Virus record (IMG/VR): IMGVR_UViG_3300025594_000042
Span: 1-29,054 of that record
DNA from: a virus
Strand: one strand, 5' to 3'
DNA length: 29,054 nt
In this document: positions 1 to 25,986 of the stretch, piece after piece
How the letters are laid out: the number at the start of each line of letters is the position of its first letter
Numbering within the stretch: position 1 is the stretch's first letter
Notes under the pieces: generated by a model
Told to the model about the DNA's origin: nothing
What the model saw: the letters and a program-made list of their open reading frames with translations, nothing else
Database searches by the model: none
Position numbers and translations under genes: made by a program

Positions 1-1945
1 CTCCCACTTCAATGTCATTTGCATTTTCTGTTAGTATTATTCCATCGCCTGCCGTCAGGCTGCGGAATTCAAAATCATTAACTGTACGTTGTTTAAATAC
101 GTCACTACCTGCACCTAGGCTGCTGGCAGTAAGACTTTCACCGACGGTGATAACGTCTGCTGCGACACCCATAGTAATCGCACCACTTACATTGAATGTG
201 CGGAATTCTAATTTGCCAACATTATTTTGCTTGTAAACTTCATATGGTCCACCGCCGACATTTAATCCGTCATTAACGCTGCCTGAACCTGTTGCAAATG
301 TTTGCCACACTCCAAGTTGATATCCTTCAAATGCGCCTGTCGTAGTATTATAACGCATGGCACCATTTGTTGTGCTTAATCTCTGCGCGGTTGTTCCTTT
401 TGTAAGTGTTACGCTATCAGTACCTGGTAATACAGGATTAGTCGTGATACTAAGTGTTGGATTATTACCTGTGCCACTACCATTTGCTACTGTTATCTGC
501 CCTGAAGTCCCAGATATGCTGCGGTATAATGCGGTATCACCGCTTCGCACCAAAAATCCATTACCTGTGCTAGCATTAACATCAGTTAGGAATGATCCGA
601 ATGTTGAGCCGCCACCCACAACTTCATAATCATCAATAATCGCCCCTGTGTTTATATTATTCTTGAGATAGGTTACGCCATTATCACTGCGGTAAACAAG
701 CTGACCTTCAGATGCACCACTATTGATAAGTCCAGTTTCATCACCAACAAAGAGGGTTGCACCGTCAAGAGTGTAATTGTTAGTAACTGTGGTGTTTACT
801 GTCCCACCGCCTGCGGCTTCACCTTCAGCAATCGCAGCGTTAACTGGATTGGTTGGTAGGCCACCGTTATCATAGCCAGGCTGGTCGATTGTCTCTGGTA
901 CTGTGCCGACACTAACTTGCTCTGCTTGTTGGGTAACAGTTTGTGTATACCCAATAATTTCACCGCAGTAGTTATAGACTGGATTTTGCTCTGCAATTGT
1001 TGGTTCTGGATCTGTAATACGACGTAAAACACGCAACAGATCGTCATCGCAAATCAACTCAAGTATGTTATTATACGTGTTGCCGTTACTGTCGACTACT
1101 GGATATGATCCACAATTGTCATATATGTTTTTAAGCCTCACTGCCGCGCTGACGCAGCCTTGCATGCCTTCGTCTTGTGAATTGAAGCCACAAGCGACAC
1201 CTTCATGTGTTGGGCGCGTATCTTCTGACAGGTCGCTTCCGCCTTGATCATAGTTTGTTGCTACATTGGTTTCACGAGCAATAATGTCATCAATTGCCGT
1301 TTCGATTAATGTGATATCGTTAATGAGTGTTTGTTCAATTGCGCCTAAGTCATCAATATTGTCCCAGACTTTTTTGAGAACGCCACTACTAAAAATACTA
1401 CCATTAAAACTGCCACCTATTAGGCAGCCGCCAATTTCACCTGGCAAAACTTGTCCAATTGAATCAACAATATCACGACCTGCGCCAAGGAAACTGTCCA
1501 TTACATTTTCTAAGACATTAGGAATACGAATAGGATTAATTGGTGCAGAACAGAAGTTAATCATGTTTGCGATGTTTGTTACTTCAGCAATAACGTTATT
1601 GATACGTCCTAGGACTTCATCAAGTTTGAGATGATCCATAAACTTATCAAAGGCCTGGTCAAGTGAGGCCAGTGCTGCATATAGTGCATCAGATACTGTA
1701 CCCAATACTGTACCCAATAGCTCTTTGATGTTAAGGCTAACACAAATTTGTATATTAGGTAGCAGTAGCCCGCGCCCAGCTAATAGGCTACAGATGATTT
1801 CTTTGAGATTAACATCAATCTCAGCACTCACCATAAATCCAGCAATATTTGCTACACTAGTTGATAGCTGGGCAGACGCACCAATATTATCAGTAAGATA
1901 GTCGTTGGCACTTGCTAGGCCGTTTGGAAAGTCTGTAAATGCCAT
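1..1945 (-). CDS. Tail-fibre-like virion structural protein (C-terminus beyond left edge)
   Basis: The frame starts at an ATG that overlaps the stop of the PAAR gene (TAATG) and stays open for 648 codons to the left edge, so the C-terminus is missing. The first ~350 residues are mixed, with many cysteines (for example GGCLIGG, NYCGEI) and several predicted helices. From about residue 380 it becomes Gly/Thr/Asn-rich and looks like beta-structured fibre shaft. The last ~85 visible residues hold two copies of a ~40-residue repeat: each has a KQ..V...EFR core followed by an Asp-Val/Ile-Ile-x-Val-Gly-like end, the second including AGDGIILTEN. Phage fibres and baseplate-attached appendages often have such repeats. 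Translational coupling to the spike gene suggests a baseplate or fibre role. The fibre-like composition is seen in the sequence; the exact tail position is inferred. Confidence 0.7.
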   Translation of the reverse strand, partial: MAFTDFPNGLASANDYLTDNIGASAQLSTSVANIAGFMVSAEIDVNLKEIICSLLAGRGLLLPNIQICVSLNIKELLGTVLGTVSDALYAALASLDQAFDKFMDHLKLDEVLGRINNVIAEVTNIANMINFCSAPINPIRIPNVLENVMDSFLGAGRDIVDSIGQVLPGEIGGCLIGGSFNGSIFSSGVLKKVWDNIDDLGAIEQTLINDITLIETAIDDIIARETNVATNYDQGGSDLSEDTRPTHEGVACGFNSQDEGMQGCVSAAVRLKNIYDNCGSYPVVDSNGNTYNNILELICDDDLLRVLRRITDPEPTIAEQNPVYNYCGEIIGYTQTVTQQAEQVSVGTVPETIDQPGYDNGGLPTNPVNAAIAEGEAAGGGTVNTTVTNNYTLDGATLFVGDETGLINSGASEGQLVYRSDNGVTYLKNNINTGAIIDDYEVVGGGSTFGSFLTDVNASTGNGFLVRSGDTALYRSISGTSGQITVANGSGTGNNPTLSITTNPVLPGTDSVTLTKGTTAQRLSTTNGAMRYNTTTGAFEGYQLGVWQTFATGSGSVNDGLNVGGGPYEVYKQNNVGKLEFRTFNVSGAITMGVAADVITVGESLTASSLGAGSDVFKQRTVNDFEFRSLTAGDGIILTENANDIEVG

Positions 1946-23466: not shown

Positions 23467-23960
23467 AAGTCACCTATATCCATGACGTCCGGTATCTTGT
23501 TTGTCTCTTTGACAAAGAAAGCGCATTCGCTTCCTGGCTTGTCGCTTAGTGGCACTGCTAGCAAGTGTCCCTGCTTGAGCTTTGGAAAGTGCCATTTGAC
23601 TTCATTGTAAACGTTAACTATTTCAATTTTTGGATAACTAGGCATGTAGCTTGAGATTGGATTGAGTGAAAACGCTGTAAAGCCTCTGTCATTGAGACTT
23701 GTGATCGGTATCACTTCAGGTTCACCTACCTCACTATCGCATATAATCAGGCTCCAATCAATCGGCATTTTAAATGTCGATTCACCGATTTGTAGCACGG
23801 CTGCTGGAGCGTTAAAGATTTCCAAGAATACAAGTGGCATAAAGAAGTAGTCAGGGTTTTGTTTATCGCTGTAGTCTAAGACACAATAACGTATGTCATC
23901 GATCTCTTCAGGCACAAAATCCAATTCATAGGTTTCGTTGTCACTGGTTAAAATTTTCAC
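23460..23960 (-). CDS. Conserved hypothetical protein of the uvsW operon
   Basis: 166 aa, start overlapping the uvsW stop by 4 nt. It is beta-rich with conserved-looking blocks: YFFMPLVFLEIFNAP, FKMPIDWSLIICDSEVGEPE, SLNDRGFTAFSLNPISS, VKWHFPKLKQGHLLAVPLSD. The same order of blocks is familiar from a protein that accompanies DNA-metabolism genes in T4-like cyanophages (from memory). No catalytic motif or metal site is evident. Conservation with uvsW suggests a DNA repair or replication accessory, or a structural gene carried there by chance. Confidence 0.7.
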   Translation of the reverse strand: MKILTSDNETYELDFVPEEIDDIRYCVLDYSDKQNPDYFFMPLVFLEIFNAPAAVLQIGESTFKMPIDWSLIICDSEVGEPEVIPITSLNDRGFTAFSLNPISSYMPSYPKIEIVNVYNEVKWHFPKLKQGHLLAVPLSDKPGSECAFFVKETNKIPDVMDIGDLW

Positions 23961-25531
23961 TTAGGTTTGACCTTTCGGTTGTCGAACCTCTCGAATAAAT
24001 CCTTTTGGAGTCGCATGTCCTCGCGCCAGTTAGTCTTTGTAATTTTAAAGGCATACTGTGCTTTTTTGTAGAACTTCTTCCTCTCAGTAAGGTGACGCTT
24101 GCTGAACTTGGCGCTAGAGGTAAAGTCGTAAATGTTAACGAAATCTTTGTCCTCAGCTTTACGTAAACCTCGTCCGATACTTTGAATGACACGGATAAAG
24201 CTCTTGCCTGGTTCAACTAACACCATATTAAATATTCGGGGAACGTTGATTCCTACAGATGCTACTCCGTAAGTGGCGACAATAATCTTATTGTCTTCCT
24301 TTGAGATCTCCTTATAGTGACCTCGGCGATCTTCGTTCTTCATCTCACCACTTACAAACACTGTACGGTCTTCTGGCAGTCGTTCCAGCAAACCCTTACC
24401 TGCTTTTACACGATCAACTAGAACTAGAGTATTGCCTTCAGAAGCAATAGCCATAATCATTGCTGCCATGTAATCAAGGCGGTCACTGTCTGTTGTGAGA
24501 TAACTTAACTCGGATTGGTAATTGTCGTAGTGCACCACATCTTGCATCTGAATGACATCAATGTGGCAGTTACTAAGGACACCGGCGTCCTGTAGTGTTT
24601 TAGCTGCAAGGTCTCCTACGACTGGACCTAAGCTGACTGTTAAGCCAATAGCAGCATGTTCGTCTGGTGGGATGGTTCCTGTCAGTCCCCAACGAATGGG
24701 TACATTGCGGAACGGTCCTGTTAACAGTTTCATGAGTACGTCAGCCTTTGCACCATGTGCTTCGTCGACGATGACTGCCATTACTCCTTTGCTGAAGTCT
24801 TCAAGCGACATTTCGCTCTTGCCTTCGCGGAAATTCTTATGGATAATCTCTAGGCTTTGCCAAGTGCATATTGTGTGAGTGCAGTTATACTCTTTGCGAT
24901 CACCGTAGTAGACGCCTACGTCTAAACCTAGGTTGACATAGTCTTCTTCTGTCTGTGTTACAAGTCCCTTGTTGGGTACGATAACAATTGTGCGAGCACC
25001 ACCGTCATTGCCTGTCACAAGCTTGTGCATTACTAGCTGCTCATCAGTCATACAACGTTCAACGAGTTGACTGAGTGCTGCGGTCACCAGTGTCTTACCA
25101 GCGCCTGTTGCTACCTCTTGTACACTCTTTTGGTTGACCAGGAAGTTGTTGATAATCTCAACTTGATAGTCGCGCAGCATAACAGGCTGCCCGGCAACAG
25201 GATGATCTTCTGGCCATACTTTGTGGGCAAAATGATCTGCTGTAATTGTGGTCAAATCTACTTGATAATTGATGCGGCTGTCACTCAAAGTAACATCGTA
25301 TCCTGATTCAATAAGATCCGGAACGATATCCTCAAGTAGACTACTGAAAGTTTTACCGCCTATTGCGAAGTAGTTCTTCTTACCGTCCCAACGACCCATC
25401 TTGAATGCTGGCACATGGTATGCATGTGGTAGCATGTAACTAAATTTGTCGTAAAACTTTCGTCTATCTGCCGTTGACAAGCCGTGAATTTTACAATTCA
25501 CCTCATCAAGTAACTCAATTTTTGCTTCCAT
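23957..25531 (-). CDS. uvsW: UvsW-like SF2 recombination helicase
   Basis: 524 aa (T4 UvsW 503). The start at MEAKIELLDE matches the family's short beta-rich N-terminal domain (FKMGRWDGKKNYFA near residues 43-56). Helicase motifs are Q-type LRDYQVE, Walker A ATGAGKT (141-147), DEAH (256-259), LTGT (283-286) and motif VI QSIGRGLR (450-457). UvsW unwinds R-loops and branched DNA and helps the switch from origin- to recombination-driven replication. The ATG is seven bases after a TATATT -10 box and has no Shine-Dalgarno, so its mRNA from that promoter would be leaderless. First gene of a nine-gene operon. Confidence 0.93.
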   Translation of the reverse strand: MEAKIELLDEVNCKIHGLSTADRRKFYDKFSYMLPHAYHVPAFKMGRWDGKKNYFAIGGKTFSSLLEDIVPDLIESGYDVTLSDSRINYQVDLTTITADHFAHKVWPEDHPVAGQPVMLRDYQVEIINNFLVNQKSVQEVATGAGKTLVTAALSQLVERCMTDEQLVMHKLVTGNDGGARTIVIVPNKGLVTQTEEDYVNLGLDVGVYYGDRKEYNCTHTICTWQSLEIIHKNFREGKSEMSLEDFSKGVMAVIVDEAHGAKADVLMKLLTGPFRNVPIRWGLTGTIPPDEHAAIGLTVSLGPVVGDLAAKTLQDAGVLSNCHIDVIQMQDVVHYDNYQSELSYLTTDSDRLDYMAAMIMAIASEGNTLVLVDRVKAGKGLLERLPEDRTVFVSGEMKNEDRRGHYKEISKEDNKIIVATYGVASVGINVPRIFNMVLVEPGKSFIRVIQSIGRGLRKAEDKDFVNIYDFTSSAKFSKRHLTERKKFYKKAQYAFKITKTNWREDMRLQKDLFERFDNRKVKPK

Positions 25532-25538
25532 ACTGTTT

Positions 25539-25567
25539 AATATACACTTTTTATTTAATGATGTCAA
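25539..25567 (-). promoter_or_regulatory. Sigma70-type promoter P2 for uvsW
   Basis: Minus strand: -35 TTGACA (25562-25567), 17-nt spacer, -10 TATATT (25539-25544). The -35 and first half of the spacer copy promoter P1 139 bp upstream almost base for base. Confidence 0.85.
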
Positions 25568-25593
25568 TGTATTATATAATAACATAGATGATT

Positions 25594-25619
25594 GCGGGCC
25601 GAACTAATGCTCGACCCGC
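25594..25619 (-). terminator. Strong GC hairpin, possible terminator or RNA stem
   Basis: Eleven base pairs, two of them G-U on the minus strand, closed by an ATTA loop. It is not followed by a U-run on the minus strand, so efficiency as an intrinsic terminator is doubtful. It lies after the AAA/100-aa genes and before promoter P2. Confidence 0.45.
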
Positions 25620-25671
25620 TTAACTAACCAGAGACGCAATGATGGAAAGGAGATGTTACTAGTTAGTTATT
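25594..25671 (-). ncRNA. Putative phage small structured RNA with anti-Shine-Dalgarno loop
   Basis: From the predicted start of promoter P1 (about 25671) the minus strand has no ORF. It can fold into stem 1 (TAACTAAC at 25662-25669 with GTTAGTTA at 25621-25628), whose 33-nt loop exposes CATCTCCTTTCC (25644-25655), complementary to Shine-Dalgarno sequences such as GGAAAGGAGATG. Stem 2 follows (25594-25619): GCGGGTCGAGC, loop ATTA, GTTCGGCCCGC. The predicted length is ~78 nt if it ends after stem 2. It may regulate translation in trans, or act as a leader/attenuator for uvsW. Existence and ends are inferred from sequence alone. Confidence 0.5.
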
Positions 25672-25677
25672 GTCCTT

Positions 25678-25706
25678 ATAATACTATTTTTCTTTAATGA
25701 TGTCAA
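25678..25706 (-). promoter_or_regulatory. Sigma70-type promoter P1 upstream of the structured RNA
   Basis: Minus strand: -35 TTGACA (25701-25706), 17-nt spacer, -10 TATTAT (25678-25683). It overlaps the last codons of the 100-aa gene. It shares TTGACATCATTAAA with promoter P2, followed in both by an A5 run. Confidence 0.75.
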
Positions 25707-25986
25707 GAAGATATTTAGGATTACAAAATTCATCTACTTTGAAACGTTCACTAAACGCGTCAAAGTATCCATACGATCCATATTCAGTGCAGCTAACAAG
25801 AACTGAAGCGCCGCCGTCAATTATTTCTACTGTGTCCACTCCAAATTTAAGTTCCTTGAACACCATTTGCTCTACTGGTGCCAACCTTGAACGAGCCTCA
25901 GCTCGTTTCAACTCAACCAATTTATCAGCGATCACATATAGTTCATTTTCAATGCGTTCAAACTCTGCAATGTCTGCTCGGTTCAT
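25684..25986 (-). CDS. Conserved hypothetical protein downstream of AAA+ ATPase
   Basis: 100 aa from the ATG of MNRADIAEFERIENEL, preceded by a near-perfect GGAGGT ribosome site. The N-terminal ~45 residues form a charged helix (ERIENELYVIADKLVELKRA); the rest is alpha/beta with an aromatic patch (TEYGSYGYFDAFSERF). The start is one base after the ATPase stop, so the two are co-translated. It may be a partner of the ATPase. No family was recognised. Confidence 0.7.
   Translation of the reverse strand: MNRADIAEFERIENELYVIADKLVELKRAEARSRLAPVEQMVFKELKFGVDTVEIIDGGASVLVSCTEYGSYGYFDAFSERFKVDEFCNPKYLLDIIKEK

Follow-up and report, generated by a model that had tools for sequence, protein, structure and literature searches.

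A putative structured RNA with a conserved anti-Shine-Dalgarno loop upstream of uvsW in marine T4-like phages

Introduction

What is encoded in the 152 bp without a gene (25532-25683) that lie directly upstream of a uvsW-like helicase gene in an uncultured marine phage? The window, by which we mean the whole stretch of 29,054 nucleotides analyzed, is a piece of a T4-like tailed phage. Its uvsW-like helicase is common to many IMG/VR contigs, and the nearest named phages are the jumbo phages Phosso and Atu_ph07 and the PA5oct group (46-50% identity). Besides uvsW of phage Phosso, no DNA matches of the window to named phages were found, and the relatives used throughout are metagenomic fragments. 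A preliminary description had placed two near-identical promoters around an RNA that would mask Shine-Dalgarno (SD) sequences in trans or, alternatively, form a leader of uvsW. To our knowledge, only a handful of regulatory RNAs have been described from lytic marine phages.

Results

The locus is read on the minus strand in the order AAA gene, 100-aa ORF, P1, two hairpins, P2 and uvsW (Table 1). The gene-free length agrees with the earlier estimate of about 150 bp. The two promoters, with their 17-nt spacers and TATTAT and TATATT -10 elements, are as originally described, and each scores 11/12. Homologues of the window uvsW begin at the same ATG (25531).

Table 1. Positions of the features at the uvsW-proximal locus of the window
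Feature	Position	Strand	Remarks
nrdC.10-like AAA ATPase, 337 aa	25988..27001	(-)	phrog_1250, E 5e-76; T4-like nrdC.10 matches; synteny
Small ORF, 100 aa, no family, between AAA gene and RNA	25684..25986	(-)	3' end overlaps P1; last codons (stop 25686-25684) overlap P1 -35 and spacer
P1, TTGACA (25706-25701), 17-nt spacer, TATTAT (25683-25678)	25678..25706	(-)	Predicted start ~25671, base of hairpin 1
Hairpin 1, 11-bp stem (25669-25659 with 25631-25621), 27-nt loop containing CAUCUCCUUUCC	25621..25669	(-)	Compensatory pairs; L004 folds alike
Conserved loop CAUCUCCUUUCCAUCAUUGCGUC	25633..25655	(-)	Identical in 5 lineages
Anti-SD core AUCUCCUUU within loop	25654-25646	(-)	
Hairpin 2, 11 bp, GC-rich, 4-nt loop	25594..25619	(-)	All cells (100%) paired; two-sided changes in 3-4 pairs
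P2, TTGACA (25567-25562), 17-nt spacer, TATATT (25544-25539)	25539..25567	(-)	Promoter of predicted leaderless uvsW mRNA
uvsW-like helicase, 524 aa, downstream gene	23957..25531	(-)	Pfam ResIII / Helicase_C / DEAD

Folding of the minus strand gave an MFE of -33.9 kcal/mol (z = -7.0), which no shuffle equaled, and the opposite strand folded much worse (z -2.6). The first stem has 11 pairs rather than the 8 initially reported; the second, an 11-bp GC hairpin, was correctly identified. By sequence inspection, short reading frames across the loop are not conserved between relatives on either strand. In the more distant relative L006 (3968-4086), a 13-bp stem (CTTTGGAGTTGTC/GACAACTCCAAAG) before uvsW shares bases with hairpin 2, so that only one of the two can form; this stem is not seen in L007.

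Conservation of the RNA spans seven lineages of marine jumbo T4-like phages (group A). A 20-base piece of the loop occurs exactly in 9 viral contigs, and all nine carry the whole unit upstream of uvsW. The 23-nt loop is unchanged in five lineages, has 1-2 changes in L227 and differs slightly more in L228, although the window shares only 41-47% of uvsW third codon positions with the relatives that can be aligned; L004 was left out of this comparison because its alignment needs a gap, which makes an ungapped comparison invalid. A covariance model, R1, was built from five sequences, and it brought in two further lineages, L227 and L228. In an alignment of six lineages, 95.5% of the cells are paired and five pairs are changed on both sides, with compensatory changes in both stems. 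The covariation score of 0.306 lies above all 500 shuffles (0.187 shuffled), and sliding the register reduced it to 0.076 at most. The covariation check suggested in the preliminary description revealed a conserved structure. R1 gives one strong copy per record or contig. In Rfam 15, no family reached its gathering score for group A or for the groups B and C described below, and scans at E<=5 returned nothing or one weak match far below the cut-off. The 'Skipping-rope' RNA motif, considered for its similarity, was rejected; it gave no Rfam match and no useful literature.

The TTGACA of P1 is exact in all seven group-A lineages, and its -10 element, which is weak in L083, ends 6-9 nt before stem 1, so that the predicted RNA starts at the base of the hairpin. 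The more distant L006 and L007 have TTGACT/TAAAAT, with the -10 placed 8 nt from the stem. The gene upstream of the RNA in L228 is divergent (372-1436, minus strand), which leaves P1 as the only possible promoter for the RNA. This arrangement, together with the conserved position of the -10 relative to stem 1, indicates that P1 is a dedicated promoter, and it argues for the group-A RNA being a discrete transcription unit. Compensatory changes, an invariant loop, the positioned P1 and the divergent gene of L228 all bear out the earlier claim of a structured RNA with a conserved anti-SD loop, and we regard it as very probable that the interval encodes a real structured RNA.

The near-identity of P1 and P2 holds in the window, where the 14-nt TTGACATCATTAAA is exact in both promoters and has no other exact copy, but it is restricted to this lineage; in relatives both promoters are retained and P2 reads differently, e.g. 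TTGACATTCATAGAG. The distance from the P2 -10 to the uvsW ATG is 7 nt in 7/7 lineages, and P2 is therefore predicted to make a leaderless uvsW mRNA in each of them. Two side observations concern the DNA around the promoters. L082 (1441-2017) has an extra 87-aa ORF between the small ORF and the RNA, and its old C-terminal coding stretch over P1 (TATCTTCTTGACATCATTAAAG) remains although it no longer codes, as might be expected if P1 had to be preserved. In L004, L082, L083, L084, L227 and L228, the DNA between hairpin 2 and uvsW holds a third inverted repeat, CTCTATG..CATAGAG or a compensated form of it, which overlaps the P2 -35 and may be an operator or a leader hairpin; it has been lost in the window.

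In more distant UvsW relatives, the corresponding site holds a hairpin whose loop is a different conserved, pyrimidine-rich sequence, and a terminator follows it. The loop of group B, CUCCUCUGUC..CACUCUCACUC, was found in 111 stretches. About 108 of the 112 indexed group-B loci are the RNA, which places this loop type in about 108 viral contigs, and at least 105 lie 14-70 nt past the stop of the AAA gene, upstream of uvsW. They comprise 56 distinct hairpins with 33 different 5' arms, and the stems, usually followed by a true terminator, are very variable. The real stems form 8.5 of 9 pairs and those with swapped arms 6.9 of 9, the pairing having been fitted to each sequence separately for real and swapped arms alike. 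The loops of group C are nearly pure CU repeats. No P1-like promoter was detected in group B, where an explicit test was made, or in group C, and so the RNA there is probably a 3'UTR product of the nrdC.10-like AAA gene. R1 does not match group B; synteny and layout suggest that the three groups are homologous. L115-L117 and relatives, a part of group B, have an extra hairpin before hairpin 1 (e.g. AAATGTCC..GGACATTT).

Pattern searches had supplied the group-B and group-C sets, so a test free of that bias used 58 non-redundant AAA 3' regions collected through UvsW only. Loops were called by a stem finder with shuffles, because counting loops by MFE only was too insensitive. CTCC was the most frequent of all tetramers within large hairpin loops and occurred there in 13 of the 58 regions, versus 0-2 after shuffling. 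No anti-SD hairpin was found in the AAA-gene 3' regions of T4, VH1_2019, K368, PAC2, D490 or Shinkou.

Three group-B loop matches (L250, L304 and L316) are not the RNA. On their opposite strand, GUGUGAGUGAGAGUGACCGCAGACAGAGGAG followed by ATG forms the SD leader of a gene for a 16-aa basic, Lys/Arg-rich peptide ending in KKKKKSKKRSR, and these contigs are from other marine phages than the RNA carriers. The gene precedes a terminase gene in L250 and L304 and another gene in L316. The 26-nt group-B loop is antisense to this leader in all three contigs, with a predicted duplex of -61 kcal/mol and one bulge; the energy is not independent evidence, since the search pattern itself required 21 of the matches. 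Independent of the pattern are the exact placement at the SD in 3/3 and the extra matches in the middle of the loop and into the 3' arm. The three contigs are homologous to each other and count as one event. The SD-leader and peptide module of about 90 nt (L250:330-444, L304:3792-3877, L316:3858-3944) has partly different neighbors and occurs, within the viral collection, only in these contigs.

No cis partner RNA was found within L304/L382, the phage that bears the peptide gene, and the complement of the group-B loop was not enriched near the RNA loci (1 Mb of neighboring phage DNA). Host targets were sought as well: in 84,980 species genomes the only matches of the group-B pattern were two unrelated, chance-like sites and one MAG contig that is itself a phage contig of the same type, and the group-A loop gave none. 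L304 also has its own diverged nrdC.10-type AAA protein (89-934, minus strand; phrog_1250, E 3.5e-38), with no anti-SD hairpin 3' of the gene.

An antisense partner at an SD is thus seen at the sequence level in group B only. The window loop has no extended target in ~280 kb of relatives or by gapped scan. Its best candidates are more than 50 near-identical phage promoter-leaders, TTGACAAACCAAG..TTGCTTATATT..GTAAGCAAAGGAGATA, whose SD, AAAGGAGAU, is a 9-nt complement of the loop; 6% of shuffled loops pair as well, so this check against phage ribosome sites yielded only these leaders and was not significant. The unit reads TTGACAAACCAAGgcac-TTGCTTATATT-N6-GTAAGCAAAGGAGATA-ATG, and its palindrome TTGCTTA/TAAGCAA, spanning the -10 and the start, is likely bound by a phage regulator. 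It is found in the window (28440-28385, minus strand), in G001 (34047, 53205), in G002 (8648, 9774, 29304, 73634) and in L190-L226, and the AAA gene carries a variant. A candidate pairing between the loop and the uvsW start (UUCCAU with AUGGAA) is broken in L004 and was rejected.

Discussion

The explanation we favor, and hold to be reasonably likely, is that the interval encodes a trans-acting antisense small RNA that hides ribosome-binding sites. A transcript of ~75-90 nt would start from P1 at the base of hairpin 1, as the promoter spacing suggests. Hairpin 1 would present the nearly invariant loop, whose 5' half is anti-SD, and hairpin 2, a true terminator in relatives, would protect the 3' end. 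By pairing in trans, the loop may then cover the SD region of one mRNA or of a few and block ribosome binding; P2 would separately yield the leaderless uvsW mRNA. For the SD-masking role first proposed, support comes from a distant relative, the group-B loop being antisense to an SD leader, but not from the window loop, which lacks an extended target. The further suggestions of a global damping of translation and of an advantage for leaderless mRNAs find no support in the pairing results, in which the window loop paired with the promoter-leaders only marginally better than shuffled loops did.

The RNA could instead act in cis, as the structured 3' end of the nrdC.10-like operon (a terminator or stabilizer), as a uvsW regulatory leader read from P1, or as both, with the loop bound by an actor on the same mRNA. 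Groups B and C, where the RNA serves as 3'UTR and terminator of the AAA gene, fit such a role. In group A, hairpin 2 is the counterpart of that intrinsic terminator and has no U-run, so P1 transcripts may continue into uvsW, and L006 and L007 showed no promoter resembling P2 in the stretch from the hairpins to uvsW. A terminator, however, does not need an invariant loop of 23-27 nt, and P1 is kept in group A even where the upstream gene is divergent (L228). The leader alternative of the preliminary description gains from the missing U-run in the window and loses from P2, which bypasses the RNA in 7/7 lineages; in group B the RNA can lie up to ~1.1 kb from uvsW. We consider action in cis unlikely.

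Two other readings do without mRNA pairing. The 16S rRNA 3' tail is GAUCACCUCCUUUCU, and the group-A loop stretch UAUCAUCUCCUUUCC resembles it by inspection, so the loop, by mimicking this tail or a pyrimidine-rich site, might be a decoy for a protein, ribosomal or RNA-binding, that it would sequester. The CU repeats of group C would suit a decoy. We find it improbable, given that the conserved loop runs well beyond the mimic (AUCAUUGCGUC), that group-B loops are unlike the 16S tail outside CUCCU and that group B has its 26-nt antisense partner. Inverted repeats between two promoters might also act as DNA, as an operator, a replication start or a recombination site, and the relatives' third repeat over the P2 -35, which accounts for a weak match of R1 to the reverse strand, could be read this way. 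That repeat is missing from the window, folding strongly favors the minus strand over the plus strand, G-U pairs are kept and the conservation of the loop far exceeds what a DNA stem-loop needs, all of which makes a DNA-level element highly improbable.

Among known elements, the PeSL cassettes of T4-type phages, said to go back to Arbiol et al. in 2010, are reportedly repeated mobile promoter/stem-loop units found at many sites per genome. The window element shares with them the combination of promoter and stem-loop and the setting, a gap between genes of a T4-type phage. It differs from PeSLs so described in occurring once per contig at one syntenic place, in its conserved loop and in having TTGACATCATTAAA only at P1 and P2. 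A parallel to the antisense mechanism is offered by the alpha-r14 or 'cuckoo' sRNAs (NfeR1 of Sinorhizobium meliloti), whose anti-SD loops are reported to block the ribosome-binding site by pairing (PMC10746234); we propose that the window RNA would likewise block ribosome binding on specific mRNAs. Those RNAs are encoded by bacterial chromosome genes and have three hairpins, each with CCUCCUCCC unpaired (PMC10746234). An ultraconserved anti-SD loop on freely varying stems is common to both. The phage RNA, in contrast, has two hairpins and one long anti-SD loop, containing AUCUCCUUU in group A or CUCCUCUGUC in group B, a terminator-like second hairpin and no Rfam match; its loop sequences differ from theirs, and it is phage-borne. 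Another comparison is with 3'UTR-derived sRNAs that act on mRNAs, such as CisR, which is reported to derive from the prtV 3'UTR and to act on phage cep mRNA (PMC13250501). Groups B and C similarly sit in a 3'UTR with a terminator and the proposed action is again mRNA pairing; here, unlike CisR, the RNA is encoded by the marine phages themselves and in group A has its own promoter.

The locus would represent an undescribed family of structured RNAs that many uncultured T4-like phages carry next to a core gene, always in the corresponding position, and the loop gives a ready prediction of its binding partner. We can also imagine RNA-based interference, in which a conserved scaffold beside uvsW carries lineage-specific loops aimed at SD sites of rival or co-infecting phages or at a shared host mRNA. 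This idea comes from the match of the group-B loop to the peptide leader in three other marine phage contigs and from the sample number shared by the peptide contig L250 and the RNA contig L307; it is speculative, and we think it unlikely. Should the group-B pairing be real, it would be a rare case of one phage's RNA aimed at another's translation.

The promoter spacing of uvsW recurs elsewhere. Two more genes in the window, at 20050-20014 and 7430 (minus strand), are predicted to be leaderless, as are sites at G001 63937 and G002 38210; in the two window genes, the promoter -10 ends 6-8 nt from the ATG. They are a DNA primase-like gene, with a similar start spacing in two relatives, and an exonuclease-like gene.
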